From positions 1 to 38,911 of the IMG/VR virus record IMGVR_UViG_3300035162_004867: DNA of 38,911 nt; one strand, given 5' to 3'. Shown piece by piece: positions 21,762-33,629 of the stretch. The notes beneath the pieces are model-generated. The model saw nothing but the letters and a program-made list of their open reading frames with translations. It was not told the origin of the DNA and did no database searches. The position numbers and the translations under genes are program-made. Positions within the stretch are counted from its first letter, which is position 1. The number at the start of each line of letters is the position of its first letter. Origin of the DNA: a virus.

Positions 21762-22519
21762 CAGATGACTCTTGTCTTTTCGTGCCCAACTCTGATACGT
21801 GGATCACACCAAATCTCATACCCTGCACTGATAGCATCGAGACAGAATGATACATCCTCTCCACACATATCCTGTACCTCTCCACTCTCAAAAACTTGCA
21901 TCTTTGGTGCAAACCATGGATACTTCATCTCTTGATTCTCAAAGACTCCGTGCTTAATCAGTAACCATCCAAATCCTGCATAGTCCACAGTAAACGGTTT
22001 ACGGCGCTTTGAAATACTCTCCCCAGTTTCATGATTCATGACTCCACCATTATTTCGGAAATCATCTTCCTCCATCCAATGTGCCACACTGGTCGTGCGA
22101 CCGTCCTCAGTCATATACCATCCACTTGCAATGTCTTGATCCATCAAAACCAATTGCCAGAATTTCTCTGAGGTAAACACAATATCACTATCAATCCATA
22201 ATTGATAATCATACTGTAATTTACCGTCCCATGGAATTTGATCCGGTCCTCTCAGTACATTCGCACCTAAACATTTGCATCTTGCAAAGTTTACCATTGA
22301 TGAATAATCCTGAGAAATCTGGATACTTGCTCCTGCCTGCACTAAATCAAAACAAAGTTGTACAAAGTTTTTGAGATACGTATAAGATACTCCTCTACCA
22401 GGTAAACAAAAGACAATGGACTTGCCTTTTACCATTTCCTTTGCCTTCGCATAGTCCCATTCAGGGGCACTCTCAGTTGCTTTGGGAGTCTTTGCTTTTA
22501 CTGTAAATCCTTTAGCCAT
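21761..22519 (-). CDS. Glycosyltransferase-like protein (GT-A type), 252 aa
   Basis: The protein has GKSIVFCLPGRGVSYTYLKN near residue 32, a DSD (DxD) motif at 110-112 within YQLWIDSDIVF, an acidic GED at 220-222, and a late histidine in RVGHEK near 246. DxD, acidic pair and late His together fit metal-dependent GT-A glycosyltransferases and match a conserved cyanophage protein of this kind. The substrate is unknown; modification of virion proteins, DNA or host glycans are all possible. A good sigma-70-like promoter lies just upstream, so this gene can start the transcript that also carries the 53-, 50-, 33- and 238-aa genes, which follow with overlapping or tightly spaced ends. Confidence 0.75.
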   Translation of the reverse strand: MAKGFTVKAKTPKATESAPEWDYAKAKEMVKGKSIVFCLPGRGVSYTYLKNFVQLCFDLVQAGASIQISQDYSSMVNFARCKCLGANVLRGPDQIPWDGKLQYDYQLWIDSDIVFTSEKFWQLVLMDQDIASGWYMTEDGRTTSVAHWMEEDDFRNNGGVMNHETGESISKRRKPFTVDYAGFGWLLIKHGVFENQEMKYPWFAPKMQVFESGEVQDMCGEDVSFCLDAISAGYEIWCDPRIRVGHEKTRVI

Positions 22520-22542
22520 AACTTTAAATGAACTACTTCAAT

Positions 22543-22571
22543 ATCATAACACTCTATCTATACTCAGTCAA
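22543..22571 (-). promoter_or_regulatory. Sigma-70-type promoter for the glycosyltransferase-like gene
   Basis: On the minus strand, TTGACT (22571-22566), 17 bp, then TATGAT (22548-22543). Spacing is ideal and the -10 lies 24 bp before the start codon. The -35 lies in one copy of a 17-bp direct repeat (see 22561-22600). Confidence 0.7.
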
Positions 22572-22600
22572 GACTTCCTTCGGTACTCAGTCAAGACTTC
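22561..22600 (-). repeat. Tandem 17-bp direct repeat at a gene end and promoter
   Basis: GAAGTCTTGACTGAGTA occurs twice (22600-22584 and 22577-22561) separated by 6 bp. The upstream copy encodes the last residues and stop codon of the AbrB-like gene. The downstream copy supplies the -35 box (TTGACT) of the next promoter. This suggests that duplication of a gene end created a promoter. Confidence 0.85.
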
Positions 22601-22778
22601 GAATTACAATACAATCATTCTCTACCTCGATGTTTACTTCTGTTCCCTCATACCACCCCTTCTCATCACATATCCATTCAGGTATGTTAATAATATATTC
22701 CCCACTTACTGGGTCGATCTCTACGGTCGTAAAATTTTCCTGCGGATTTTTTTGCATATCTTTGAATCCTTGTGCCAT
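22587..22778 (-). CDS. AbrB/SpoVT-like small protein, 63 aa
   Basis: Residues about 17-62 follow the AbrB/MazE swapped-hairpin pattern: TVEIDPVSGEYIINIPEWI, then GWYEGTEVNIEVEND and CIVIRSLD. AbrB-like domains bind DNA as dimers and occur as transition-state regulators and antitoxins; no toxin partner is visible next to it. This makes it one of two plausible DNA-binding proteins in the window. The start follows an AT-rich TATATAAAAAC tract, without a clear Shine-Dalgarno sequence; an internal ATG at residue 8 is an alternative start. Its last codons belong to the direct repeat that forms the next promoter. Confidence 0.7.
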   Translation of the reverse strand: MAQGFKDMQKNPQENFTTVEIDPVSGEYIINIPEWICDEKGWYEGTEVNIEVENDCIVIRSLD

Positions 22779-22970
22779 GTTTTTATATATGAAAATTTTT
22801 TATTTTGGAGATTGAAATGCTTGGAGATCTTGGTGGGTCTTGGTGAATCCTTTGAGGTTTATATCTAAAGGTCGATCTGGGTCGTTTGTAGACTCCAGGG
22901 ACCCATGGGTTTTATATACGGCACCCCATAATACCCCGTTAACTGTCATTCACGAACGAACGGCACTGTT
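22779..22970. other. Intergenic stretch, no gene seen
   Basis: About 190 bp between the AbrB-like gene and the first 3' hairpin. Longest frames are under 20 codons. It contains a short palindrome (ACCCATGGGT, 22902-22911) and a TATATAAAA tract, but nothing I can assign. Confidence 0.5.
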
Positions 22971-23005
22971 ACTTAGGGGGGTGGATTGCCCCCCTTAAGT
23001 GTTAG
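22971..23005 (-). terminator. 3' hairpin 1 of the AACACTTA/GGGG family
   Basis: Minus-strand CTAACACTTAAGGGGGG, a 7-base loop, then CCCCCCTAAGT. The stem is about 11 bp with one bulged base. It overlaps the stop codon of the 55-aa gene. It is one of six such hairpins in 22971-26366; no strong U-tract follows, so terminator, processing site or mRNA-end stabiliser are all possible. Confidence 0.65.
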
Positions 23006-23169
23006 TCTGTCGTGAAAATCCACAGGTAGAATTCACCTACGTCGATTCTTTCGCCCCTTAAGTGAGAATAATCTCTCAGGAATTGAGAGACTAAGTTATA
23101 ATTAAGCGCCTCATTGAGGCACTTAATCCATGTCGTTGTACCCTTATCGTCAGCAGAAAGATTGAACAT
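23002..23169 (-). CDS. Small protein, 55 aa, unknown function
   Basis: The frame encodes MFNLSADDKGTTTWIKCLNE and ends FYLWIFTTD. It is in the same layout as its neighbours: ATG preceded by an ACCTTTCTTTCG leader like the one before the 92-aa gene (ACCTTTCTTTCT), stop codon overlapping a conserved 3' hairpin. Those shared flanks are the main reason to call it a gene. The protein is mostly helical in appearance, with an aromatic C-terminus. No family recognised. Confidence 0.65.
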   Translation of the reverse strand: MFNLSADDKGTTTWIKCLNEALNYNLVSQFLRDYSHLRGERIDVGEFYLWIFTTD

Positions 23170-23201
23170 AATCGAAAGAAAGGTGAAAGGTATAAAGAAT
23201 T

Positions 23202-23230
23202 GGGGGGGATTAGACCCCCCTAAGTGTTAG
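23202..23230 (-). terminator. 3' hairpin 2 of the AACACTTA/GGGG family
   Basis: Minus-strand CTAACACTTA, GGGGGG, loop TCTAAT, CCCCCC, one base after the stop of the 78-aa gene. The following sequence (CAATTCTTTATACC) is only mildly U-rich. Confidence 0.65.
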
Positions 23231-23231
23231 A

Positions 23232-23468
23232 TTAGAACCCTAATCTTTCTGATAGATATTGCTCAACCTCATCAGAATTGGTAGGGTTCTGTGTACTGTG
23301 ACCGGCAAATTTCATTGCTCTAAATGTTGCCTCCTCTATTGAAGAGATAACATTAGAGACCTCTATTGTCTCACCTTTAGAGATGTTAGTTGCTGTCACT
23401 ATGTAACCCTTACCGTTAGGGTTACACATAACAGCAGAAAATAGAGTGTCATTGTTGTAAAGAAACAT
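23232..23468 (-). CDS. Hypothetical protein, 78 aa
   Basis: The protein begins MFLYNNDTLFSAVMCNPNGK, continues GYIVTATNISKGETIEVSNV and ends with an acidic helix and YLSERLGF. The first half looks like a small beta sheet, the second half like helices; no transmembrane segment. An ATGGAGGAACC leader lies about 30 bp upstream. It is flanked by hairpins 2 and 3, so it appears to be a separate expression unit. No family recognised. Confidence 0.7.
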   Translation of the reverse strand: MFLYNNDTLFSAVMCNPNGKGYIVTATNISKGETIEVSNVISSIEEATFRAMKFAGHSTQNPTNSDEVEQYLSERLGF

Positions 23469-23562
23469 GGGTTGGTGCTCCGATGTGGTTCCTCCATATC
23501 CTACAGGATCGGAACGGGTAACCGTGGCAGGTCACCCGACTTGTAACACTTTGAAATAATGT

Positions 23563-23596
23563 CACTTAAGGGGATGATTAGTCCCCCTAAGTGTTA
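23563..23596 (-). terminator. 3' hairpin 3 of the AACACTTA/GGGG family
   Basis: Minus-strand CACTTAGGGGGA, a 7-base loop, TCCCCTTAAGTG: 11 pairs with one mismatch. It begins inside the stop codon of the 92-aa gene (TTAACACTTA). Confidence 0.65.
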
Positions 23597-23872
23597 ATGA
23601 ATCAATTCTGATAAGTGTTCATAACCCTTAATTTTGTGAGCATAATCGGGCGATGGATAATCACGAAGCAGTTTTTTATACTTTCTAACTGAAATATCTT
23701 TCTTAATTGAATCATAGGCAGCATCCCTGAATATACCTGGCACCGCATTGTGTCCTAGATAACCCTCATCCCACACTGCTAAAATATCTTCATTGTCATC
23801 AATTAAAGCATACAATCGCTGAGGGTTGCCGTTAACATCGTTGTTTGCACAATAGTGAAAGATAGTTGCCAT
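23594..23872 (-). CDS. Conserved cyanophage/cyanobacterial hypothetical protein, 92 aa
   Basis: The motif order DVNGNPQRLYALIDD, then AVWDEGYLGHNAVPG, then RKYKKLLRDYPSP is one I recognise from small hypothetical proteins of marine Synechococcus and its phages. Function is unknown. The protein is soluble, with an N-terminal strand region and a basic C-terminal half. It sits alone between hairpins 3 and 4; its leader, ACCTTTCTTTCTAAA, matches that of the 55-aa gene. Confidence 0.75.
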   Translation of the reverse strand: MATIFHYCANNDVNGNPQRLYALIDDNEDILAVWDEGYLGHNAVPGIFRDAAYDSIKKDISVRKYKKLLRDYPSPDYAHKIKGYEHLSELIH

Positions 23873-23898
23873 TTTAGAAAGAAAGGTAAAAGAATAGG

Positions 23899-23925
23899 AG
23901 GGGGATTGCTCCCCCTAAGTGTTAG
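23899..23925 (-). terminator. 3' hairpin 4 of the AACACTTA/GGGG family
   Basis: Minus-strand CTAACACTT, AGGGGGA, loop GCAA, TCCCCCT: a 7-bp stem with a GCAA tetraloop-like loop, immediately after the stop of the 68-aa gene and followed by CCTATTCTTTT. Confidence 0.68.
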
Positions 23926-24132
23926 TTAACGTTGCCTGCGTTTAGTCAATTCCATCCCATAAGTGCTTGCCTGATCAGAATAGAATCCTTCTACGATTCC
24001 GCCGTCAACGTTGCGCCATAGCGCCTCTACAGCGCGACAATCTTTGACCGCGTAGATTAACTCAGCGTCAGTCATGACTTGCGCCTGCGCTTGCCAATTC
24101 CGGAAATCATTCTCGGTTGCGTGTCTTGCCAT
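23926..24132 (-). CDS. Hypothetical protein, 68 aa
   Basis: I place the start at MARHATENDFRNWQAQAQVM because the sequence just upstream (24133-24200) is a leader repeated in front of the DUF7227-like gene, where it is clearly non-coding; a longer in-frame start at 24210 would translate that leader. The protein is helical and polar: TDAELIYAVKDCRAVEALWR, then a short segment ending GMELTKRRQR. It is more GC-rich than the structural genes. No family recognised. It ends in hairpin 4. Confidence 0.7.
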   Translation of the reverse strand: MARHATENDFRNWQAQAQVMTDAELIYAVKDCRAVEALWRNVDGGIVEGFYSDQASTYGMELTKRRQR

Positions 24133-24200
24133 GGGGTGTCGGTTGGTTCGAACTGATCTAAGATTAAACCGAAAAGAGACCATTGCCAGTCCCATTGTGC
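24133..24200 (-). promoter_or_regulatory. Repeated promoter/leader module, copy 1
   Basis: Minus-strand sequence with ACTGGCACAATGGGACTGG, TGGTCTC, TAATCTTAGATCAGTTC and AACCAACC before the ATG. The same series, with scattered substitutions, precedes the 226-aa gene (25823-25895). A weak -35 (TGGCAA), 16 bp, and -10 (TAATCT) can be read at matching positions in both. The leader contains few G residues. Confidence 0.6.
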
Positions 24201-24221
24201 CAGTCGTCAAACTGGTTTTTT
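24200..24221 (+). terminator. Possible plus-strand terminator next to structured element A
   Basis: CCAGT, 6-base loop, ACTGG then six T. The stem is short (5 bp) and is not maintained in the related copy at 26950, so this may be only part of a repeat. Confidence 0.3.
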
Positions 24222-24222
24222 C

Positions 24223-24316
24223 GACCCCATAGGTGCTTAAGATCGATTAGAATTTAGGAAATCAGAGGAGGTGCGGGGTAGCACTGTAGATGACAATATA
24301 TCGACACTCACCCTGC
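24223..24316 (+). ncRNA. Candidate structured RNA element, copy A
   Basis: One of three related copies (A; B at 26967-27060; C at 29318-29414). Inner hairpin: GGTGC (24270-24274), 6-base loop ggggta, GCACT (24281-24285). The outer pairing TCGATTAG/GTAGATGA (24243-24250 with 24286-24293) has 6 of 8 pairs. AGGTG (24231-24235) can pair with CACCCT (24309-24314) leaving one bulged base. Paired positions change together between copies, and the retained G-U pairs favour the plus strand as the RNA. 57 bases (24208-24264) are identical to copy B. Expression is not shown; a DNA element remains possible. Confidence 0.5.
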
Positions 24317-24342
24317 CATAAAATAATGTTAAATTTTATTTC

Positions 24343-24592
24343 AATTTTAGGGGTGTGCCAATTCACAAACTGTCCACTCCACCGGCACAGGTCTCAAAAT
24401 ATGCTAGGATGGAGGTAGAATATATTTTTAAGGTGGACAGTTGAGAAAGTGTCCACTCAACTGGCATAGGTCTCAAAATATGCTAGGATGGAGGTAGAGT
24501 CTAATGTGTGGTGTGCCAGTTTGTAAGGTGTCCACTTGACATTAAAAATCTTACCTGTGACGTGGTAGGATGGAGGTAGAGTCTAAAATTTA
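24343..24592 (+). repeat. Three tandem ~80-bp promoter-like repeats
   Basis: Each unit has GTGTCCAC or a related half-site, then GGCACAGGTCTCAAAAT (units 1 and 2), an extended -10 (TGCTAGGAT or TGGTAGGAT; -10 hexamers at 24405, 24484 and 24566) and GGATGGAGGTAGA. Unit 2 has the inverted repeat GTGGACA-N10-TGTCCAC (24433-24439 and 24450-24456). No plus-strand gene follows, so transcripts would be non-coding or antisense to the 91-aa gene at 24780. Confidence 0.65.
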
Positions 24593-24731
24593 GTAAAAGT
24601 AATTAAAAAAAAGAATTAAATTAAATTGATGATGTAAAGAATTAAATAGTGTTATGTTATATCTCGTGATGTATTATGTTATATCTCGTGATGTTAATCT
24701 CGTGCTATGTGATGTTATATCTCGACGAGAT
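24593..24731. repeat. AT-rich tract with repeated ATCTCGTG half-sites and one palindrome
   Basis: GTTATATCTCGTGATGT or close variants occur three times (24653-24720), ending in a full palindrome ATCTCGACGAGAT (24719-24731). The half-sites match one arm of the 13-bp palindrome found at 27466, 27509, 29847, 29921, 29953 and 29974. No gene in this stretch. Confidence 0.6.
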
Positions 24732-24742
24732 TTTTATTACAA

Positions 24743-24775
24743 TAGGGAGAGAATTTTCTCTCCCCTAAGTGTTAG
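24743..24775 (-). terminator. 3' hairpin 5 of the AACACTTA/GGGG family
   Basis: Minus-strand CTAACACTTA, GGGGAGAG stem, AAAA-type loop, CTCTCCC, then TATTGTAATAAAAA. The stem sequence differs from the other copies (GGGAGAG with CTCTCCC) but stays complementary, which supports selection on pairing. Confidence 0.68.
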
Positions 24776-24779
24776 GAAA

Positions 24780-25055
24780 TCATCCTACGATTGCTGCCAT
24801 TAACCTGTCACGCTTGCGCGGAGCAATAGAAAACCACAAGTCCCGTTTTCCGGTCTTAGCGTTCAGGGTGGCACCGATCTGTCTTGACGTTTCAAGGTCT
24901 ACCAAGACGGCATGAACGGTCCCTTTGTGACGCTTAGGATCGAGTCCCATAGTGCGGACCAACTGGGTGCCAGTCATCGGACCTTGCTGAATCAGGATGC
25001 TACGGGCAGCGATCCTGATCATGCGGTGAAACATTTGAGAGGAGAATGCGATCAT
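24780..25055 (-). CDS. Putative winged-helix protein, 91 aa
   Basis: I use the start MIAFSSQMFHRMIRIAARS because a promoter (-10 TATACT at 25091-25086) and the preceding terminator lie just upstream; the longer frame would begin inside them. The segment SILIQQGPMTGTQLVRTMGL, then HKGTVHAVLVDLETSRQIGA and KRDLWFS reads as helix-turn-helix plus wing, like small winged-helix regulators. It is therefore a candidate repressor for one of the nearby operator families, by inference only. Composition is richer in GC and Arg than the structural genes, suggesting a different origin. Confidence 0.65.
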   Translation of the reverse strand: MIAFSSQMFHRMIRIAARSILIQQGPMTGTQLVRTMGLDPKRHKGTVHAVLVDLETSRQIGATLNAKTGKRDLWFSIAPRKRDRLMAAIVG

Positions 25056-25085
25056 GGTTTCGTGTGGTGTGGTGTGGACTCTTAA

Positions 25086-25091
25086 AGTATA
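25086..25091 (-). promoter_or_regulatory. -10 box of promoter for the winged-helix gene
   Basis: Minus-strand TATACT lies 31 bp before the chosen start and directly after the terminator of the gene upstream. A convincing -35 is not seen. Confidence 0.45.
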
Positions 25092-25092
25092 G

Positions 25093-25128
25093 CGAATAAA
25101 ATCGGGCAACCGTGGAAGATTGCCCGAT
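25093..25128 (-). terminator. Rho-independent terminator of the 226-aa gene
   Basis: ATCGGGCAA, 10-base loop, TTGCCCGAT: a perfect 9-bp stem, followed on the minus strand by TTTATT. It starts 13 bp after the stop of the 226-aa gene. Confidence 0.75.
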
Positions 25129-25141
25129 CTTTAACATTTGT

Positions 25142-25822
25142 TCACATTTGATCTAAGATGGCGTTGACAGTTTTTTTCGCGTTACCGTGGGCAGGAAATG
25201 CCACGATGCTGGAACGATTAGCATCAGCGCAGATTCTGCAATCGTCGCATGATACGTTATCATGAATCGTAGCGGGGCAAACTATTACTTTGCGTCCGCT
25301 GCTAGTGTTAAAGAATCGACGCGATTCGTCAGACTTAATAACAGCAACCGCTGGAATGTTATGCTGTGACATAACACTATCTGCAACCTCCACTGATTCA
25401 CAACTAGCGTTGATTGTGAACCCGCTATCATTCGCAAACTTAATAGCGCCTAGGTTTACATCGTTGCTCAGATCGTGGTGAGTGTAAGTGTAACCCTTGC
25501 GCCCCTTATTAGCGCCGATAAGTTGAAACAACTCTTGAGTGTTGATTGTCTGCTTAATGTGTGGAAGATCCCCGCTGACGTTATGACGCCAGAACTGCCC
25601 CCGCTTGAGTTTGCGGATAGAGTTACAGAATTGATCCCACGACGTGCCCCGTGCGCCCTCTGTGACCTTCTGCCAATGGATATTCTGGGGTCCACCCTTG
25701 GCATAGCATCCCTTGCTGAGAAAGGGGCATGATGCAGGGCAAGTGTTTTTCTCACTTGTGCTTGTGGGGATCGCGCCAGTTTTGCGGTTGCTTGAGATGG
25801 CGGTGAGTGCTGCTTGTGTCAT
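25142..25822 (-). CDS. DUF7227-like protein, 226 aa
   Basis: The protein shows a motif series that I associate with DUF7227: SNRKTGAIPTSTSEKNTCP, CPFLSKGCYAKGG, FWRHNVSGDLPH, GYTYTHHD, NASCESVEVAD, GRKVIVCPAT, CDDCRICA and FPAHGNAKK. Cysteine pairs near residues 28-40 and 190-200 could bind metal. The family occurs in phages, plasmids and mobile elements; its function is unknown to me. The coding sequence is markedly richer in GC than the baseplate genes, which suggests acquisition from another replicon. It has a repeated leader module upstream and its own terminator downstream, so it is an independent unit. Confidence 0.75.
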   Translation of the reverse strand: MTQAALTAISSNRKTGAIPTSTSEKNTCPASCPFLSKGCYAKGGPQNIHWQKVTEGARGTSWDQFCNSIRKLKRGQFWRHNVSGDLPHIKQTINTQELFQLIGANKGRKGYTYTHHDLSNDVNLGAIKFANDSGFTINASCESVEVADSVMSQHNIPAVAVIKSDESRRFFNTSSGRKVIVCPATIHDNVSCDDCRICADANRSSIVAFPAHGNAKKTVNAILDQM

Positions 25823-25895
25823 TGGTGGGTTGGTTTGAACTGATCTAAGATTAGTCTATTAGGAGACCGTTTCCAGTCCCCTTGTGCCAGTCTTA
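25823..25895 (-). promoter_or_regulatory. Repeated promoter/leader module, copy 2
   Basis: Same series as 24133-24200: ACTGGCACAAGGGGACTGG, ACGGTCTC, TAATCTTAGATCAGTTC, AACCAACC before the ATG of the 226-aa gene. Sequence outside these blocks differs, which fits a conserved control region attached to unrelated genes. Confidence 0.6.
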
Positions 25896-25901
25896 GGATT
25901 G

Positions 25902-26129
25902 TCACAGCATTGCAATTAAGTGCATCAAGGAAGCAATCTGGACCGGAGTCTGCCAGATGATCACATCTTCTAACATGTTGCCGTTAGGACGGATAACAGC
26001 AACCTCGAAAGTATCCTTCCAACGATTATCCGATACCACTGAGATGGTCCAACCGTTCGGGAAAGTGTGCCGTGCTTGGCAAGCACCTGGCAGCATGTGA
26101 TCGGTGAATGTTAGTTGTGAAAAGGTCAC
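25902..26129 (-). CDS. Conserved hypothetical protein, 75 aa
   Basis: The segment LTFTDHMLPGACQARHTFPN, GWTISVVSDNRW and FEVAVIRPNGN resembles a small protein family of cyanobacteria and phages with an ARHTFPNGW core; function unknown. It ends with helical IWQTPVQIASLMHLIAML. Its stop lies close to a CTTAGGATTGTC sequence shared with other gene ends in this block. Confidence 0.7.
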   Translation of the reverse strand: MTFSQLTFTDHMLPGACQARHTFPNGWTISVVSDNRWKDTFEVAVIRPNGNMLEDVIIWQTPVQIASLMHLIAML

Positions 26130-26199
26130 GGTGGTGTGTTGCGGTTGAACCTATTGTTGCATGTGATGGGACACCCTGTCGATGCCCCTTGTGCCAGTG

Positions 26200-26316
26200 C
26201 TAGGATTGTCTGGCGGTTTCGATCAATTCTGATCCTGCCTGTATGGCATCGACAAAATAGTGACCGTATGCTGTGCCAACGGTCAGACATAGAACTGCAA
26301 TCAAAAATGTTTTCAT
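26200..26316 (-). CDS. Small membrane or exported peptide, 38 aa
   Basis: The frame encodes MKTFLIAVLCLTVGTAYGHY and ends SELIETARQS. Lys followed by a 15-residue hydrophobic run and TAYG resembles a signal sequence or a single transmembrane helix. Its stop overlaps the CTAGGATTGTC sequence of the region, and hairpin 6 with the 161-aa gene lies upstream. Evidence is composition and neat fit between neighbours; no family recognised. Confidence 0.55.
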   Translation of the reverse strand: MKTFLIAVLCLTVGTAYGHYFVDAIQAGSELIETARQS

Positions 26317-26337
26317 AGTGTTGAGAGTTTATGTTAA

Positions 26338-26366
26338 TTAAGGGGAGGACTAATCCCCTTAAGTTT
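26338..26366 (-). terminator. 3' hairpin 6 of the AACACTTA/GGGG family
   Basis: Minus-strand CTAAACTTAAGGGGA, 7-base loop, TCCCCTTAATTAA: a perfect 9-bp stem, about 10 bases after the stop of the 161-aa gene. The flank is AAACTTA rather than AACACTTA. Confidence 0.65.
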
Positions 26367-26375
26367 AGTCTTCTA

Positions 26376-26861
26376 TCACACTTTAAGATAACCTTCTTTC
26401 ACTAAACGGTCACGGATTGCAGCAGCATCAGCACCACAATGTGGGCAGGCAGATGCAATTTTAATTTTAGAAATGCAGACATATCGATAACTAGGTGAAA
26501 TAAATCCACGGGACTTAAGTTTGTATGCTGCAAAAATAACTTTCATGATGTTACGTTGCTCCAAGGTATGAACAAAATCAAAATAAAGTCCCCGAGCATT
26601 CGTGAAATCAGAATAAGGTCTATTTGCAATTTCACTGAGTTTTTTTACAATTGCCTGAGAAGTAGTCTCCGAAAAATATTCTTTAATTATGGAAACCACA
26701 AAATCATCAAACTTTACAAGGTTATTGATTTGTCTTTCTTCTTCTTTTACAGGTGCAATCGGTGTATTGACAGTATTGGAAACAATACTGAGAATTGTTG
26801 CCAATGTGGACAAATCTGCCTCTACCGTGTTGCCGTTGATGATCGCGGTGGTGGTGGTCAT
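26376..26861 (-). CDS. Hypothetical protein, 161 aa, with C-terminal CPHC motif
   Basis: I start at MTTTTAIINGNTVEADLSTL because the longer frame would run into the repeat next to structured element B. After an N-terminal helical region there is FDDFVVSIIKEYFSETTSQA and NRPYSDFTNARGLYFDFVHT, then SKIKIASACPHCGADAAAIR near the end, a possible metal-binding CxxC. No family recognised. The region upstream holds element B, which is on the opposite strand. Confidence 0.65.
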   Translation of the reverse strand: MTTTTAIINGNTVEADLSTLATILSIVSNTVNTPIAPVKEEERQINNLVKFDDFVVSIIKEYFSETTSQAIVKKLSEIANRPYSDFTNARGLYFDFVHTLEQRNIMKVIFAAYKLKSRGFISPSYRYVCISKIKIASACPHCGADAAAIRDRLVKEGYLKV

Positions 26862-26966
26862 TGGTATGAATCGGATTGAATGTGTGTTTGTCCGATGTGC
26901 CAATGATGCCCCAGATTTTGAGATCCTGCAACTGGGTTTTGTGCCACCTGCCAAACTGGTTTTTTC

Positions 26967-27060
26967 GACCCCATAGGTGCTTAAGATCGATTAGAATTTA
27001 GGAAATCAAACGAGGCGGGAGGTACTGCTGTTGACGAACCTACATCGACACTCACCCTGC
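26967..27060 (+). ncRNA. Candidate structured RNA element, copy B
   Basis: Inner hairpin GGCGG (27014-27018), loop gaggta, CTGCT (27025-27029); compared with copies A and C, pair 3 changes from T-A to C-G and pair 5 to G-C, so pairing is kept. The outer stem (26987-26994 with 27030-27037) is weak, 5 of 8 pairs. The 3' part ATCGACACTCACCCTGC (27044-27060) is identical to copy A. Confidence 0.5.
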
Positions 27061-27096
27061 AATGAAATAATGTTAAATTTTATTTCAATTTTAAGA

Positions 27097-27153
27097 GTGG
27101 ACAGTTTGTAAAGTGTCCACTCAACTGGCACAGGTCTTAAAATGTGATACAAT
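27097..27153 (+). promoter_or_regulatory. Plus-strand promoter module with inverted repeat
   Basis: GTGGACA-N10-TGTCCAC (27097-27103 and 27114-27120), then TGGCACAGGTCTTAAAAT and extended -10 TGATACAAT (hexamer 27148-27153). It is the same module as in 24343-24592. A transcript would run into 27154-27277, which has no gene, and then antisense to the 61-aa gene. Confidence 0.55.
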
Positions 27154-27277
27154 AAAAAAGACCTGGGCACCACCCCAAGTCTCAGAGAACCAACACACTA
27201 AACCCTAAAATTATAAGTTACAGTGCTCGCAGAGTGACTTTACTTATAGATGGGGCAAACTCCTTCCCCGTATGTGA

Positions 27278-27463
27278 TCATTGTAGCATCCAATGGGGGT
27301 CGTTGTCAACCATAACCCAGAAGTGATTCCTCTTGTTTTGTGATGTGAGGAACATCATACCATCACGCACTTGCTCTATTGTGCATATGTGATTCTCGTC
27401 CATTAGGTTAGAGAATCTGTTCTTTGCTTTTCTCGTGATGGGTGTGACTGTAATTGTGTTCAT
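27278..27463 (-). CDS. Small conserved phage-type protein, 61 aa
   Basis: The protein starts MNTITVTPITRKAKNRFSNL and contains TIEQVRDGMMFLTSQNKRNH and FWVMVDNDPHWML. It resembles short hypothetical proteins of cyanophages; function unknown. The ATG lies 2 bp after one of the 13-bp palindromes, and a second palindrome covers the -35 region of its promoter, so it is probably under operator control. Confidence 0.75.
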   Translation of the reverse strand: MNTITVTPITRKAKNRFSNLMDENHICTIEQVRDGMMFLTSQNKRNHFWVMVDNDPHWMLQ

Positions 27464-27465
27464 GG

Positions 27466-27521
27466 GTCTCGTCGAGATCTGATGTGTTTATTGTAATGTA
27501 TGACATACATCTCGACGAGAT
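27466..27521 (-). promoter_or_regulatory. Promoter bracketed by two 13-bp palindromes
   Basis: Palindromes at 27466-27478 (GTCTCGTCGAGAT on plus strand) and 27509-27521 (ATCTCGACGAGAT), centres 43 bp apart, about four helical turns. Between them is a minus-strand -10 TACAAT (27495-27490); the second palindrome falls on the -35 position. A further palindrome ATGTATG-A-CATACAT (27496-27510) lies in the spacer. The layout fits repression with looping or cooperative binding. Confidence 0.65.
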
Positions 27522-27572
27522 CTGAGTGCCAGTGTGAGGACTGGCACATCTCGACTAGACTTCTAGACTAGA

Positions 27573-27779
27573 TCAGGCATCAATCAAGGTAAGAACTGAT
27601 GCTTTGATCTGCTGGTCAACAAAGCGACCTTTGCTGCTGGCAGCATTGAAAGCAGTGGCAAATGCTTGAACGTCAGCAATGCCATAGGTGTAGTCAGTGC
27701 CATTAGGACGGGTGATGACTACATTGCTATCAGAAACACTGAGAGCAGTCATTGCAGAAGAAGTGAAAGGATTGATCAT
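27573..27779 (-). CDS. Hypothetical protein, 68 aa
   Basis: The protein begins MINPFTSSAMTALSVSDSNV, then VITRPNGTDYTYGIADVQAF, and ends KASVLTLIDA. It looks like a small alpha/beta domain, with a strand hairpin followed by a helix. Richer in Ala and GC than the structural genes. A hairpin (GCGGG..CCCGC, 27816-27836) separates it from the 68-aa gene upstream. No family recognised. Confidence 0.7.
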   Translation of the reverse strand: MINPFTSSAMTALSVSDSNVVITRPNGTDYTYGIADVQAFATAFNAASSKGRFVDQQIKASVLTLIDA

Positions 27780-27851
27780 AATAAAAAAAGCGATTGAATG
27801 TTGATGTGTTTTAAGCGGGATGCATCACCCCCGCTTGTTGAACTTATTCTA

Positions 27852-28058
27852 TCAGTAGTGGTGGTAACTTGCCTTGCTGTTAGGGTCAGTATACCAACTG
27901 TCATCGTTCAACAGATCGGAGATCTTCGACTGAACTGAATGTGCCAAGTCAGTCTCCTCCTCACCGTGATCCTGATAGTCTGCCATCGCATTGTAGATGG
28001 CGTCCCACTCATCTTCAGTGAAGAATTCTTTGATGCTGGCGGTCATTGTGGTGGTCAT
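27852..28058 (-). CDS. Hypothetical acidic protein, 68 aa
   Basis: The protein starts MTTTMTASIKEFFTEDEWDA and ends DPNSKASYHHY. It is helical and acidic (AMADYQDHGEEETDLAHSVQ), without membrane segments. A perfect sigma-70 type promoter precedes it. It has the small size and individual control region typical of this block. No family recognised. Confidence 0.7.
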   Translation of the reverse strand: MTTTMTASIKEFFTEDEWDAIYNAMADYQDHGEEETDLAHSVQSKISDLLNDDSWYTDPNSKASYHHY

Positions 28059-28082
28059 GGTTGGTGTCCTGCTGATGAACTT

Positions 28083-28111
28083 AGTATAGAGTGGTCTGTT
28101 GCTGGTGTCAA
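28083..28111 (-). promoter_or_regulatory. Strong sigma-70-type promoter
   Basis: Minus-strand TTGACA (28111-28106), 17 bp, TATACT (28088-28083), followed by a short leader to the start at 28058. Preceded by GTGTCACAAG, which recurs before other promoters of this block. Confidence 0.8.
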
Positions 28112-28138
28112 GTGCCTTGTGACACTTGTTGAATTGTC

Positions 28139-28279
28139 TTAGAAGTCGTTGTCTCCGTTGAGTTCTTCATGAAAGTCTAGCACGGAAAACCCGTCTTCCT
28201 CCTCTTCGTCAATAATGTCGAAGATTTCACCAGGCATGTCTTTGATTTCATGCCAGAGTGTTTCAGTTTCGTAATCCAT
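28139..28279 (-). CDS. Small acidic protein, 46 aa
   Basis: The frame encodes MDYETETLWHEIKDMPGEIF, then DIIDEEEEDGF and a C-terminus ending ELNGDNDF. About one third of residues are Asp or Glu. It has its own promoter with ideal spacing and the same leader as its neighbours (ACTAATCACAT). Function unknown; small acidic phage proteins sometimes inhibit nucleic-acid-binding host proteins, but nothing here shows that. Confidence 0.65.
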   Translation of the reverse strand: MDYETETLWHEIKDMPGEIFDIIDEEEEDGFSVLDFHEELNGDNDF

Positions 28280-28299
28280 TGTTGGTTGCTGATGTGATT

Positions 28300-28328
28300 A
28301 GTATAGGATGGGGTTGATGCTATGTCAA
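28300..28328 (-). promoter_or_regulatory. Strong sigma-70-type promoter
   Basis: Minus-strand TTGACA (28328-28323), 17 bp, TATACT (28305-28300), followed by AATCACATCAGC. Preceded by GTGTCACAACGGGG. Confidence 0.8.
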
Positions 28329-28343
28329 CCCCGTTGTGACACT

Positions 28344-28553
28344 TTAGAAAGTGAGATAAGGGTGATCTTCGTCCAGTACCTGATGACTATCAGATGCTGT
28401 CAAAAGTGTAGTCATTGGATAATACTCATCAGAATCAGAATCATACACAGTAGGGGTAGAATCTAATTGATCTCCAGACATTGCCTGAAGCATGATAAGT
28501 AGATCACGATAGGTTTGTACACCATAGGGTGCATTACTGTTGATTGGGAGCAT
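28344..28553 (-). CDS. Hypothetical protein, 69 aa
   Basis: The start is placed at MLPINSNAPYGVQTYRDLLI, because a longer frame (to 28607) would include the -10 and -35 boxes of the promoter. The rest is acidic with a DSDSDEYYPMTTLL segment and a C-terminal DEDHPYLTF. No family recognised; separate promoter. Confidence 0.68.
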   Translation of the reverse strand: MLPINSNAPYGVQTYRDLLIMLQAMSGDQLDSTPTVYDSDSDEYYPMTTLLTASDSHQVLDEDHPYLTF

Positions 28554-28578
28554 GGTGGGTGTTGTTTGGTATGTGATT

Positions 28579-28607
28579 AGTATGGCATCAATTGGTGGGT
28601 GATGCAA
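28579..28607 (-). promoter_or_regulatory. Sigma-70-type promoter
   Basis: Minus-strand TTGCAT (28607-28602), 17 bp, CATACT (28584-28579), then AATCACAT. Nearly identical to the promoter at 29257-29285, including spacer sequence. Confidence 0.68.
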
Positions 28608-28632
28608 CCCCGTTGTGACACTTAGGCAACTG

Positions 28633-28914
28633 TCACACCATTTCCTGCTGTTGTAACATCAATTGCTCCTCTGTAACCTCATCCACACAGTCTTGAATCA
28701 TACTGTAGATGTAATCTATCTGCCCAACATCATCAAAGATGCGTTCAAGAACCTCAGGATCTTCTACATTATTATCATAATCAATGTTGCCATCTTCGTC
28801 CTTCAAATGACAATCGTTCTTGGTATAAATCCAAGCAGCACATTCTGCATCCTCCCCTTGTTCTTTGATCATGCTATTAACACGGTCTTGAAGATCTTTG
28901 AGTCTGTAGTTCAT
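28633..28914 (-). CDS. Hypothetical acidic protein, 93 aa
   Basis: The protein starts MNYRLKDLQDRVNSMIKEQG and contains AAWIYTKNDCHLKDEDGNID, then a long acidic helix ending LQQQEMV. The WIYTKNDC part recalls WIYTENDL in the MTHPLTD family member at 34830, but the rest does not match well. No other recognisable features. Confidence 0.7.
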   Translation of the reverse strand: MNYRLKDLQDRVNSMIKEQGEDAECAAWIYTKNDCHLKDEDGNIDYDNNVEDPEVLERIFDDVGQIDYIYSMIQDCVDEVTEEQLMLQQQEMV

Positions 28915-28965
28915 GAGTTTGTGTTACTTAGTGAGAGTTGAGTGAGTGTTACTTATGAATTCATA

Positions 28966-29229
28966 TCAGTTATGAGCATCATTGATGCCTCCGAGACCCT
29001 CCCAAGTTTCTTCACCATAGCAATCGATAATCTCTTCTTTTAAGTCTTCCATATCATAATCTTTGATATTCTGCTCAATACTTTCAACAGCAAGTGTAAT
29101 CAGAGTGTTCATATCCATTCCCTCTACAATCATCTGTGCATAATCACTCTTGAGTTGATCGAGTTGAATCAATGCCTTGATGCCAGTATTAGGTTGATGT
29201 GTTGAAAACATTGGTGAATTACTGTTCAT
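28966..29229 (-). CDS. Hypothetical acidic protein, 87 aa
   Basis: The protein starts MNSNSPMFSTHQPNTGIKAL and is mostly helical: QLDQLKSDYAQMIVEGMDMN, then EDLKEEIIDCYGEETWEGLG. A promoter of the TTGCAT/CATACT type precedes it. Structured element C lies further upstream on the opposite strand. No family recognised. Confidence 0.7.
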   Translation of the reverse strand: MNSNSPMFSTHQPNTGIKALIQLDQLKSDYAQMIVEGMDMNTLITLAVESIEQNIKDYDMEDLKEEIIDCYGEETWEGLGGINDAHN

Positions 29230-29256
29230 GATTGGTGTCCTTTGGTTGATGTGATT

Positions 29257-29285
29257 AGTATGGCATCAATTGATGGGTGATGCAA
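29257..29285 (-). promoter_or_regulatory. Sigma-70-type promoter
   Basis: Minus-strand TTGCAT (29285-29280), 17 bp, CATACT (29262-29257), then AATCACAT and a leader with GGACACC before the start. Confidence 0.68.
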
Positions 29286-29317
29286 CCCATAATGGACAGT
29301 TGGATTAGTGGCACAAA

Positions 29318-29414
29318 GACCCCACCAGAGGTGCCTAGGATCGTCTACAATATAGGAAATCAGACGAGGTGATGGGTATCACTGTAGACGACAATACATC
29401 GACACTCATCCTGC
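29318..29414 (+). ncRNA. Candidate structured RNA element, copy C
   Basis: The most regular of three copies. Inner hairpin GGTGA (29368-29372), loop tgggta, TCACT (29379-29383); outer stem TCGTCTAC (29341-29348) with GTAGACGA (29384-29391), 8 perfect pairs. AGGTG (29329-29333) can pair with CATCCT (29407-29412) leaving one bulged base; that base is C in copies A and B and T here. This copy is well diverged from A and B outside the paired parts. Confidence 0.55.
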
Positions 29415-29535
29415 TATAAAATAATATAAAAAAACCACCCACCAAACTGGCACACCCTAAGGCATAGGGTCTTATAGTGTGCTAGAATGGGGGCAGACTC
29501 TATTTTTCTACAGGGACACTTCCTAAACTGGCACA
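29415..29535 (+). promoter_or_regulatory. Plus-strand promoter-like module
   Basis: CTGGCACACC, GGCATAGGGTCTTATAGT and an extended -10 TGCTAGAAT (hexamer 29483-29488), then GGGGGCAGA. It is related to the modules at 24343 and 27097 but lacks the full GTGGACA/TGTCCAC inverted repeat. It points towards the 50-aa gene in antisense. Confidence 0.5.
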
Positions 29536-29688
29536 CTAATACACATCAGCAGTCTCCCTGATGCTAATATCAATGTTCTCATCACCTTCTAACCCTAAGA
29601 CATCACTCCAGTTGATGCTCTTAAGGTCTAGGTCTTCATAACACTCAATGTCCAATGTAACACTTACGATGCGTTTCTGTGCGTACAT
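29536..29688 (-). CDS. Hypothetical protein, 50 aa
   Basis: Start placed at MYAQKRIVSVTLDIECYEDL; a longer frame would begin inside the -35 box. The remainder, INWSDVLGLEGDENIDISIR, looks like a compact beta-alpha domain known to me as a small cyanophage protein type, function unknown. Promoter boxes lie in the end of the 65-aa gene upstream. Confidence 0.65.
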   Translation of the reverse strand: MYAQKRIVSVTLDIECYEDLDLKSINWSDVLGLEGDENIDISIRETADVY

Positions 29689-29713
29689 GTGCCCCTGTGT
29701 GTGATGTTTACAT

Positions 29714-29742
29714 ATTGTATCATGCGTAATGCTTATACGCAA
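29714..29742 (-). promoter_or_regulatory. Sigma-70-type promoter overlapping the 65-aa gene
   Basis: Minus-strand TTGCGT (29742-29737), 17 bp, TACAAT (29719-29714). The -35 and spacer are within the last codons of the 65-aa gene. Confidence 0.6.
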
Positions 29743-29917
29743 GCTCTACGTAATCTTGTGTATCACGCGCATAATCATCATCATTCTCGTATGTATCTTG
29801 TATGTTATGCATATCTCGTAATGCATTATTCATATGATTCTCACACATCTCGTCGAGATCGTATGCATAATGTTCATTACTTAATGATGCATAGTCGAGA
29901 TCGTAATCGTCGTACAT
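29720..29917 (-). CDS. Acidic, tyrosine-rich protein, 65 aa, under palindrome-controlled promoter
   Basis: The protein begins MYDDYDLDYASLSNEHYAYD and contains QDTYENDDDYARDTQDYVEL. I count about 18 Asp/Glu against 3 Lys/Arg, and 10 Tyr in 65 residues. Such extreme charge occurs in DNA-mimic proteins, among others, but there is no recognised family. The promoter is an ideal TTGACA-17-TATAAT with three 13-bp palindromes in and around it, and two further copies, one complete and one half, lie inside the coding sequence (29847, 29893). It may be a tightly repressed early gene. Confidence 0.65.
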   Translation of the reverse strand: MYDDYDLDYASLSNEHYAYDLDEMCENHMNNALRDMHNIQDTYENDDDYARDTQDYVELAYKHYA

Positions 29918-29920
29918 AAT

Positions 29921-29986
29921 GTCTCGTCGAGATTTAAGTCTATTATACAGTAGTCTCGACGAGATGTCAAGTTTTCTCGACGAGAT
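29921..29986 (-). promoter_or_regulatory. Operator-promoter: three 13-bp palindromes on TTGACA-17-TATAAT
   Basis: Minus-strand TTGACA (29970-29965), 17 bp, TATAAT (29947-29942), both perfect. Palindromes with a TCTCG-W-CGAGA core at 29921-29933 (near the transcription start), 29953-29965 (in the spacer, touching the -35) and 29974-29986 (just upstream of the -35). Centres are 32 and 21 bp apart, close to three and two helical turns. This is the layout of a repressor-controlled promoter. Confidence 0.75.
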
Positions 29987-30281: not shown

Positions 30282-30821
30282 ATGCAATCCAGATTTATAA
30301 GGTTTGAGAATACAAAACATCTGAAAGATTATGAAGGTTATGGTATTGATGTAGAAGGTAATGTATGGTCATTTAAGCAAAAGAAACCAAAGATGCTTTC
30401 ACCCGGATGGAAAAAGAAAAATCATGGATATAGATCTGTTGTATTAACACCTAAGGATAAAAGCAAACCTTTAAAGAATTTCTTAGTTCATAGATTAGTT
30501 GCATTAGCATTCATTCCAACTGATGACATCACAATGCAAGTTAATCATATCAATCGTAATAGTACTGATAATACATTAGAAAACTTAGAATGGGTAAGTA
30601 GAGAAAAGAATATATCTCATAATGATAAAGTGAATGGATTTAAATTAGATTCTTACATAATAGCAAAGATAAAAGAAGTTCACTCTGCTTCTATAAGAAA
30701 AGGTCTTCCAGTTCCTACTTCCTATGAGTTTATGAATAGTATAATAGAAGGTTCATTAGAACAATATATCAATCAGTATGGTTTGCGTAAAGTAATGAAT
30801 CAATTACCGAAACCAAGTTAA
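30282..30821 (+). CDS. HNH homing endonuclease, 179 aa
   Basis: This is the only clear plus-strand gene. Residues about 15-45 form a NUMOD4-like part (KDYEGYGIDVEGNVWSFK). Residues 68-115 form the HNH domain: FLVHRLVALAFIP, then MQVNHINRNSTDNTLENLEW, with His70, Asn88-His89, Asn98 and Asn101 as likely catalytic or structural residues. The C-terminal part (110-179) is helical and may bind DNA. Such genes are site-specific mobile endonucleases of T4-like phages. Its stop codon abuts that of the convergent 208-aa gene with no gap, and a strong hairpin precedes its start; both suggest a precise insertion. No intron or intein is visible, so it is free-standing. Confidence 0.88.
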   Translation: MQSRFIRFENTKHLKDYEGYGIDVEGNVWSFKQKKPKMLSPGWKKKNHGYRSVVLTPKDKSKPLKNFLVHRLVALAFIPTDDITMQVNHINRNSTDNTLENLEWVSREKNISHNDKVNGFKLDSYIIAKIKEVHSASIRKGLPVPTSYEFMNSIIEGSLEQYINQYGLRKVMNQLPKPS

Positions 30822-31448
30822 TCACTTTACCTCTCCAAATAGTTTGTCCATACAATCAAGCACTTGTTCATCTACATCTTCAGTGATAGTTGCTTCTACT
30901 ACATCACCAACAGAGTTACCTGTCAATACACTCTTAGTTGCAGCAGCAGTAATCAGAAATGCACTAAGTTTATTCTTAATCTTATCTTCTTTCTTCTTTC
31001 TTTTTATGGCAATTAATCCATTAATATGATTATTAATAATACTATTCCTTTTCTCTCCATTAATCTTATACTCTACCTTTGACATACATGTTAATTGTTT
31101 TATGTCCTCATAAAGACTATAAAGACAATATTTAAATATATCATCAGGAAGATTTTTATTTACAGACATAGGCAAGTAACAGGAATCCGACAAGAGCTTG
31201 GATTTACGAATTGTATAAAGAGCACGAATGATATCTTCATCATCAGATGTTTGTGCAAGATGACTCATTAACCAACTATCCCATCTGTATACTTGATGTG
31301 GAATACCATTTTTGTAATGCTTCTCTTTCCATTCTTTACGGGCAACCTTATCATACTCTTTTGTATGTGATTCATCTTTATATCGATCAATGATATGTAA
31401 AATTAATTCCTTTTCTGTTTTGAAGTTGGTGAATAGTTTTTTGAACAT
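30822..31448 (-). CDS. Hypothetical protein, 208 aa, paralogue of the 31651-32346 gene
   Basis: The protein starts MFKKLFTNFKTEKELILHII and ends with a block nearly shared with the next gene: IAIKRKKKEDK, then AFLITAAATKSVLTGN and a C-terminal DKLFGEVK. Shared features also include TSDDEDIIRALYTIRKS and LPDDIF. The middle part has diverged. AFLITAAATKSVLTGN may be a short membrane-associating or buried helix. No family recognised. The stop codon is directly next to that of the HNH gene. Confidence 0.75.
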   Translation of the reverse strand: MFKKLFTNFKTEKELILHIIDRYKDESHTKEYDKVARKEWKEKHYKNGIPHQVYRWDSWLMSHLAQTSDDEDIIRALYTIRKSKLLSDSCYLPMSVNKNLPDDIFKYCLYSLYEDIKQLTCMSKVEYKINGEKRNSIINNHINGLIAIKRKKKEDKIKNKLSAFLITAAATKSVLTGNSVGDVVEATITEDVDEQVLDCMDKLFGEVK

Positions 31449-31462
31449 GATGTTTTGTGAAT

Positions 31463-31654
31463 TCAGTGAGTATGAATAGTTAGAGTTTTACCATCTGATG
31501 ACAAACCTATGGAGCAGTGAGTTAGTTCCGACCTAATCTCTCTATGACTAACAGTAGCACCCTTGTGATAATAAGACGAATGATCAACAACTAACTCTTC
31601 AACACTTGATAGTATTGTTGCATAGATTTCATTTGAATCAATTATGTGCTTCAT
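31463..31654 (-). CDS. Hypothetical protein, 63 aa, between two paralogues
   Basis: The protein starts MKHIIDSNEIYATILSSVEE and ends with CSIGLSSDGKTLTIHTH. The ATG overlaps the TGA of the larger paralogue (ATGA), so it is likely translated with it. The other paralogue follows after 14 bp. Function unknown. Confidence 0.68.
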   Translation of the reverse strand: MKHIIDSNEIYATILSSVEELVVDHSSYYHKGATVSHREIRSELTHCSIGLSSDGKTLTIHTH

Positions 31655-32346
31655 TTTTTATCACCAAATAGTTTGTTCATATAATCAAGCACATCATCAT
31701 TAACAGTATCATTAATAGATGCATCTACTACATCATCAATAGCATTACCTGTCAATACACTCTTAGTTGCAGAAGCAGTAATCAGAAATGCCTTAAGTTT
31801 ATCCTTCGTCTTATCTTCTTTCTTCTTTCTTTTTATGGCAACGATTTCATCAATACGACTTTGAATCTTTTCATTCAGAGTAGAATTAAATCCTACCTTT
31901 GACATATCATGCAATCTGAGGAATTCCTCAGATAAAGTTTCTCTCAGAAAGATTGGTGAATTGATATAACAATCAATCAGATCATCAGGAAGATGAACAT
32001 TTAAATATAATTTTGGATGACAATAGTTTTCATCGTTCATATATAAAAACCCAGAACGACGATTTTCATAAATGGCACGAAGGATTTCTTCATCATCAGA
32101 TGTTTTTGCCCATTCACCAATTATTGTTCTATCTTCTCTCCAAACATCATACGAAAAAACAGGTCCTCGCCTCTCAGGATACTGTGCTTTCCATTCAGGA
32201 AGAGAATGTTCTTTATAAATTTCTGAATTAATTGTTGCTTCTTTAATAACATTTAGAATTAATTCTTTTTCTGTTGCAAATAATGGGTCTGGGTCTGGAA
32301 CTGGAACTGAATTAGATTCGGTCTGATGAAAAAAGAAGTTAAACAT
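31651..32346 (-). CDS. Hypothetical protein, 231 aa, paralogue of the 30822-31448 gene
   Basis: Start placed at MFNFFFHQTES, which aligns with the MFKKLFTNF start of the paralogue; the in-frame TTG six codons further upstream is unlikely. It shares TEKELIL near the N-terminus, KTSDDEEILRAIYENRRSG in the middle, and the C-terminal IVAIKRKKKEDK, AFLITASATKSVLTGN and YMNKLFGDKK. A perfect TATAAT lies 27 bp upstream of the ATG. The pair arose by duplication and has diverged well in the middle. Function unknown. Confidence 0.72.
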   Translation of the reverse strand: MFNFFFHQTESNSVPVPDPDPLFATEKELILNVIKEATINSEIYKEHSLPEWKAQYPERRGPVFSYDVWREDRTIIGEWAKTSDDEEILRAIYENRRSGFLYMNDENYCHPKLYLNVHLPDDLIDCYINSPIFLRETLSEEFLRLHDMSKVGFNSTLNEKIQSRIDEIVAIKRKKKEDKTKDKLKAFLITASATKSVLTGNAIDDVVDASINDTVNDDVLDYMNKLFGDKK

Positions 32347-33125: not shown

Positions 33126-33264
33126 CAATAAAAAACCACCCCTGTGAAAAGGTGGTGTGACGGTTAACACGTTGTCTTTGTACCCAAAGGGTTTGAAAGC
33201 CTGCTGTAGGCGCTTGTGAGATAAACTGAGCAGGTCTAATCAAATCTTTATTGCCAGGTGTCAT
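33121..33264 (-). CDS. Possible small protein, 47 aa
   Basis: The frame encodes MTPGNKDLIRPAQFISQAPT and ends TTFSQGWFFIV. It begins with ATGA coupling to the stop of the 122-aa repeat protein and has the GGAGGACAACTC ribosome site. However, the last 10 codons run through the terminator hairpin (33128-33156) and the stop lies in the next promoter, so only the coupling supports it as a gene. Confidence 0.42.
   Translation of the reverse strand: MTPGNKDLIRPAQFISQAPTAGFQTLWVQRQRVNRHTTFSQGWFFIV
33128..33156 (-). terminator. Rho-independent terminator of the repeat-protein operon
   Basis: Minus-strand ACCACC, 10-base loop, GGTGGT, then six T. It ends the transcript carrying the 34-33 kb genes and is followed at once by the promoter at 33120. 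Confidence 0.8.
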
Positions 33265-33629
33265 GAGTTGTCCTCCAATTGGTTGAATGTGTCAATCAGT
33301 TCTTGATTGCGAGTTCCTTGTAACAATCGTTGAAATTTTTCCTTAGGTGTTTCAATAAACTCCCAACTCCGACCGTTGATTGTGCCACCGACACTGCCAT
33401 AGACATGACCGCCAACACTGCCACAGACACTGCCATAGACATTGCCACCGACATTGCCACCGACACTGCCATAGACATGACCGCCAACACCGTTAAAAAC
33501 ATTGCCATCGATCTGCAGTACATCGCCGTGGACACGGCCAGAGACATCGCAGATTTGCCAACCATGCGTATCATCGTACTTGAATCTGACAAGACTCAAT
33601 ACTTCTTCAAGTGTGATTTGTTTGTCCAT
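33261..33629 (-). CDS. Tetrapeptide-repeat (G-x-V-x) protein, 122 aa
   Basis: Three parts: an N-terminal cap (MDKQITLEEVLSLVRFKYDD), a repeat zone with about 15 GxVx units (VGGHVYGSVGGNVGG and so on), and a C-terminal cap (SWEFIETPKEKFQRLLQGTR). Period-4 repeats with Gly and Val suggest a narrow beta-solenoid. The caps match those of the adjacent 169-aa protein, so the pair are paralogues with different repeat numbers. TGATG overlap with that gene. Function unknown; similar low-complexity G-V repeats occur in phage proteins I cannot name. The DNA is a 12-bp repeat and may vary in copy number. Confidence 0.75.
   Translation of the reverse strand: MDKQITLEEVLSLVRFKYDDTHGWQICDVSGRVHGDVLQIDGNVFNGVGGHVYGSVGGNVGGNVYGSVCGSVGGHVYGSVGGTINGRSWEFIETPKEKFQRLLQGTRNQELIDTFNQLEDNS

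Follow-up and report, generated by a model that had tools for sequence, protein, structure and literature searches.

A candidate family of hairpin-bearing small RNAs in T4-like viruses of picocyanobacteria

The stretch of DNA analysed here (the window) is a 38.9-kb fragment of a T4-like cyanophage, for which Synechococcus phage S-SKS1 is the nearest isolate (85% match over 21 kb). The left half carries the genes for T4-like baseplate proteins, with a single ORF of 4133 aa at 5575-17976 in their midst, and the right half consists of successive small genes, mostly on the minus strand. Between these small genes lie three homologous intergenic elements on the plus strand, copies A (~24248-24349), B (~26992-27093) and C (~29346-29415). 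Copies A and B are 86% identical over 161 nt, copy C is more divergent, and a 17-nt motif of their 3' part occurs three times on the plus strand of the window, compared with 0.13 occurrences expected from shuffles. The three copies of a structured element reported in a preliminary description of this DNA are thereby recovered at their places.

All three copies share the same layout on the plus strand, namely a promoter-like -10 hexamer, a hairpin of five base pairs with a loop of six bases (P1), and a conserved block directly after it. In copy A, the hexamer TAGAAT (24248..24253) is followed by P1 (GGTGC GGGGTA GCACT, 24270..24285), the block GTAGATGACAATATATCGACACTCACCCTGCC (24286..24317) and an A/T terminator-like hairpin with a T-rich tail (24318-24349). 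The corresponding small RNA (24257..24349), assigned by homology with 97.3 bits in the covariance model R1, would start downstream of the -10 box and end with the A/T hairpin. Copy B has the same hexamer TAGAAT (26992..26997), P1 (GGCGG GAGGTA CTGCT, 27014..27029), and the block at 27030..27061, with predicted RNA ends at 27001..27093 and 86.1 bits. Copy C carries TACAAT (29346..29351), P1 (GGTGA TGGGTA TCACT, 29368..29383) and the block GTAGACGACAATACATCGACACTCATCCTGCT (29384..29415); its RNA (98.4 bits) is placed at 29355..29431, with a start predicted as for the others and a provisional 3' boundary. The hairpins are supported by covariation, the blocks by alignments and the hexamers by their conserved position, and the inner hairpins match those of the preliminary description exactly.

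Further copies were gathered by pattern scans of IMG/VR, with the covariance model and with a sequence-only nhmmer profile; two of the scan patterns left the hairpin untouched, and none required complementarity. This yielded 285 copies in 223 viral contig stretches, 201 of them distinct with flanks. Named carriers are the Synechococcus phages DSL-LC03 and S-SRM01, the latter (an isolate on Synechococcus KCZYC6) with two copies, and the marine single-cell virus AG-345-F15. Contigs carry one to three paralogues at positionally conserved intergenic sites, as a rule with unlike stems and related loops and blocks; in the 58 loci with more than one copy the stems are mostly different and the loops kindred. 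In S-SKS1 and one other long record no copy was detected at the sensitivity of model R1; S-SRM01 also fell under the cut-off of this model, yet its copies were found by sequence. Outside the viral collection, a scan of bacterial and archaeal genomes with the type-1 pattern (see below) returned as its sole match one 4.9-kb contig of a metagenome-assembled genome, which we take for a phage contig, as a phage neighbour gene of the element is also found on it, and the plasmid collection gave chance matches only.

The extended alignment allowed P1 to be evaluated in detail. All five pairs are complementary in 200 of the 201 distinct copies, with 26 different arm combinations, a count that carries a mild bias from the parsing step, which took the best-paired GGT[A/C] loop of each copy. 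Over pairs 2-5 of these copies we counted 517 GC, 140 CG, 105 AT, 37 TA and 4 GT/TG pairs, with one C-U mismatch and no A-C, and pair 1 is GU in 172, GC in 23 and CG in 6 copies. The loop follows NRGGUA, with AGGGUC in 42 distinct copies. In a tree-aware covariation test in the manner of R-scape, in which the substitutions on each branch of a 185-row tree were shuffled, the top three of all column pairs were P1 pairs 3, 5 and 2 with scores of 303, 287 and 169, all above 147, the highest value reached under the null in 60 simulated alignments. No further RNA column pair stands out among the 185 rows. Within the -10 region, two column pairs reach 118-126 (E 0.05-0.2); they are not complementary and hence reflect promoter subtypes. 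A separate covariation count gave 99.6-100% paired positions for helix 1 and a score of 0.26-0.29, compared with 0.07-0.08 for shuffled data. The compensatory changes first noted at two positions in three copies thus extend far beyond them, and paired positions that vary independently in more copies, which had been proposed as a refutation, were looked for and did not appear. Three copies alone would not suffice to exclude chance or a simple recent duplication without structure, but the arm combinations and the tree-aware covariation of the extended alignment refute this explanation, to which we assign a negligible probability. The comparison hence shows a conserved secondary structure, as expected for a small RNA gene, and is best described by a plus-strand RNA hairpin of five base pairs with the loop NRGGU[A/C] that is under selection for pairing.

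The strand assignment is based on the pair counts and on the upstream hexamer. G-U pairs occur and A-C is missing when the copies are read on the plus strand, which favours a plus-strand RNA, the more probable strand already in the preliminary description. Just upstream of the element a TANNNT hexamer is present at the same position in 198 of the 201 distinct copies in 13 variants (TATCTT, TATACT, TAGAAT, TATAAT, TACAAT, TAGACT and others), while 13% of random 30-nt windows contain such a hexamer by chance. Sigma-70 -10 boxes are constant at the positions TA---T. As many hexamer variants occur at one place, a promoter is indicated rather than mere copying, and the RNA would start 5-8 nt after the -10 box. 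The element therefore appears to have its own promoter pointing into it, as an autonomous small RNA gene should, and we regard a plus-strand RNA with its own promoter as very probable. A leader or regulatory element on the minus strand, belonging to the 5' part of the left-hand gene on that strand, would agree with the position of the element: in many loci it stands 30-150 nt upstream of genes read on the minus strand, immediately beyond a terminator of the same strand. The genes on this side, however, belong to many families, and both the G-U/A-C asymmetry and the -10 box pointing into the element on the plus strand in 198/201 copies speak against it, which makes such a leader quite improbable.

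The 3' end of the plus-strand RNA is less uniform. Behind 52 of 192 copies (27%, with 13% at random) lies a terminator-like structure on the plus strand, and behind 83% lies one that belongs to the converging minus-strand gene. Each copy had also been described as followed by a plus-strand promoter-like module. This holds within the window, where the module GGTCTYANANTNTGNTANNATG, which ends in an extended -10-like form, is seen on the plus strand at 24390-24411, 24469-24490, 27133-27154 and 29468-29489 (5 matches with up to 2 mismatches, 0.25 expected), but not for the module as a regular companion, since only 7 of the 191 copies with enough flank have it, all of them in the window and its near relatives.

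Beyond P1, several proposed structures did not hold. The outer stem described earlier, TCGTCTAC/GTAGACGA in copy C, is not conserved and overlaps the -10 box TACAAT (29346-29351), which places its 5' arm upstream of the predicted RNA start; elsewhere the stem is absent, with TATCTTATAGG in its place. A second helix P2 (GAYGA..UCGNC) was rejected, its pairs being mostly invariant or broken with no double-sided change. A pseudoknot between the loop and the 3' CCU was favoured by single-sequence folding but shows no covariation, and is contradicted by copies in which GCAGC replaces CCUGC. Minus-strand coding was also discarded, as stops interrupt the reading frame through the element and indels distinguish the copies there (by eye).

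After P1 follows a near-invariant stretch, GAYGACAAUACAUCGNCAC-NNNN-CCUGCC in type 1. In type 2 the hairpin is preceded by AAGCGAAGGAGG and followed by GAYGAAAAAGGUCGYCAC, and in type 3 ACCAGCACCAACGG stands before and CUACUGAACAAUACAUCGCCAC after it. Being nearly invariant, the block has no covariation of its own, and its near invariance suggests that it is the working part of the RNA. A search of 18 phage records for its complement gave only its own antisense and one site with two mismatches, with no perfect targets, and pairing with E. coli 16S and 23S rRNA was no better than with shuffles. With the phage records yielding so little, we would rather expect a host RNA or a protein as its partner.

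The genomic surroundings of the element are conserved as well. In the window, copy C is adjoined by a small convergent minus-strand gene (29536..29742, phrog_12516), placed by eye from its translation in a ~50-aa family whose genes border the element in about 29 distinct loci. Copy B has the convergent minus-strand gene 27278..27463 (phrog_1653), of a ~60-90-aa family that is its neighbour in about 12 distinct loci, and on its other side a minus-strand gene (26376..26954) that holds this place in 6 distinct loci. The interval from copy A to copy B includes a minus-strand gene of the DUF7227/GP88 type (25142..25822), and genes of this type are located between two copies in several other contigs too. 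The 109-aa minus-strand gene downstream of copy A (24780..25109) likewise belongs to a family that adjoins the element in other contigs. Hence, the element keeps the same small converging neighbours over wide divergence, and the adjacent proteins match only families without an assigned function. This positional conservation beside small phage genes, the -10 box and the conserved block after the hairpin had escaped the preliminary description.

This arrangement was compared with those of known RNA classes. Cis-regulatory leaders and riboswitches have a consistent downstream gene on the same strand, whereas the conserved neighbours here converge on the element. Type III toxin-antitoxin RNAs consist of tandem repeats with an adjacent toxin gene, whereas the copies are single units 1-4 kb apart. 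An antisense RNA to the 3' end of psbA, as for CfrI, would require a Photo_RC gene, of which the window contains none, and the elements lie beside small genes other than psbA.

The near relative S-SKS1 has no copy of the element at the sensitivity of model R1; at the site of copy C (about 8575-8690 of S-SKS1) it has a long inverted repeat of ~24 bp (GTGTGCCACTTCCCCGACTGTCAC and its complement) around a promoter-like sequence, and a cassette exchange at this site is possible. A DNA-level element, such as a recombination site, a replication or packaging signal or a mobile cassette with the hairpin acting in single-stranded DNA, would account for the multiple copies, for this replacement at the orthologous place and for TGGCACA-type sites upstream of 145 of 197 copies. 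It is opposed by the G-T pairs kept where Watson-Crick pairs would serve DNA, by the strict -10 box, and by neighbours that stay fixed over wide divergence with no sign of roaming; we consider it improbable, slightly more so than the minus-strand leader.

No match in the window was obtained by cmscan against Rfam 15 (4227 families) at the gathering cut-off, or even at E up to 1, and 12 other element-carrying loci gave nothing convincing, with L20_leader in one locus at 25.4 bits for a cut-off of 58.7. The earlier statement that no RNA family of this form is known hence agrees with Rfam. We found no description of the family in a literature search, whose coverage of subscription journals is thin. 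Taken from comparative analysis, the copies constitute a previously uncatalogued family of predicted ~75-90 nt RNAs in T4-like viruses of picocyanobacteria.

Small RNAs encoded by phages are known as a general kind (PMC12197685), and those named in lytic T4-like cyanophages are few, being Rfam motifs or an antisense RNA (PMC12197685). The latter, CfrI of cyanophage S-PM2, has ~225 nt and is antisense to psbA (PMC12197685); like the element it is a non-coding RNA of a T4-like cyanophage, while the element is shorter (~75-90 nt), defined by its hairpin and located among small hypothetical genes. The wcaG, manA, glnA and abiF motifs in cyanophage S-CREM1, of which the first three are described as cis-regulatory (PMC12197685), are also structured RNAs of cyanophages. 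None was matched by cmscan in the window or the 12 other loci, and, unlike the first three, the element has its own putative promoter and no consistent plus-strand gene downstream. PreS of phage lambda is one of several phage-encoded sRNAs with a presumed trans action on host expression (PMC12197685). PreS resembles the element as a small phage-encoded RNA, so that a trans action can be proposed by analogy, not by homology; the two are unrelated and PreS depends on Hfq. As cited in PMC6202907, the RNA-binding properties of Hfq are altered in cyanobacteria (Boggild 2009).

In cyanobacteria themselves, the RNA Yfr1 has hairpins around an ultra-conserved unpaired segment. Yfr1 is a trans-acting sRNA of ~65 nt (PMC6202907) and, as proposed for the element, a short intergenic RNA from its own gene. 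The element differs in sequence, with no Rfam match, and in being phage-encoded and multicopy. Its proposed action in trans would resemble that of Yfr1, again with no homology between the two.

From these comparisons we suggest that T4-like cyanophages carry each copy as a small RNA gene in its own right. Host RNA polymerase would make an RNA of ~75-90 nt during infection, the hairpin would protect it and present the GGU loop, and the block GAYGACAAUACAUCGNCAC..CCUGC would pair with some conserved RNA of the host or, with lower probability, bind a protein, with a shift in host or phage gene expression as the result. A trans-acting small RNA of this kind, with the block as its working part, is the reading we hold to be reasonably likely, while base-pairing in trans as its mode of action has an even chance by our estimate. 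Alternatively, the RNA may be a protein decoy or counter-defence RNA, in which the GGU-loop hairpin and the invariant block bind a host protein (an RNase, an RNA-targeting toxin, a defence effector or RNA polymerase) and the paralogues raise the dose. A near-invariant loop and block next to a freely drifting stem, with stems that differ between paralogues, are usual for a protein-recognised hairpin, and the lack of an RNA target in the phage genomes fits as well; yet no tandem array, cognate toxin or known defence gene is seen adjacent, and nothing points to a protein partner. We therefore see the decoy as a tentative alternative and modestly favour trans-acting base-pairing over protein binding. 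Equally tentative is a direct action of the RNA on a conserved host molecule, such as the ribosome, RNA polymerase, an RNase or an RNA-based defence, through the GGU loop and the ACAAUACAUCGNCAC/ACAAUACAUCG block; if true, this would be an RNA-based agent of host takeover or counter-defence of a kind not yet described.

The family is found in hundreds of viral contigs, many with two or three paralogues, and is consistently located next to the same small genes; the viruses probably use these RNAs to interfere with the host or to control their own genes during infection. As at least two isolates, S-SRM01 and DSL-LC03, carry it, the possible use of a dedicated small RNA by these phages to steer their infection of abundant picocyanobacteria can be tested directly.

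The window contains several other repeats. TGGCACA occurs 20 times at 22080-29535 (3.6 expected; e.g. 24196, 24354, 25883, 26190, 27126, 29309, 29448 and 29529), in most cases as half of an intergenic dyad whose partner, TGTCCAC or TGTGCCA, lies ~10 nt away; these may be either terminator hairpins or a protein-binding dyad. The palindrome TCTCGACGAGA(T) and close variants cluster in intergenic DNA at 24720, 27467-27573 and 29848-29986, with 17 matches (both strands, about 9 places) compared with 1.75 expected. Two stretches of 216 nt (30822-31037 and 31651-31866) are 82% identical and lie in two neighbouring genes (208 and 237 aa), which have no PHROG match and stand beside a plus-strand HNH endonuclease gene (30282-30821). 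Further to the right, the minus-strand ORFs 33261-33629 and 33629-34138 share a 217-nt duplication and contain ~20 units of a 12-base repeat at 33373-34083.
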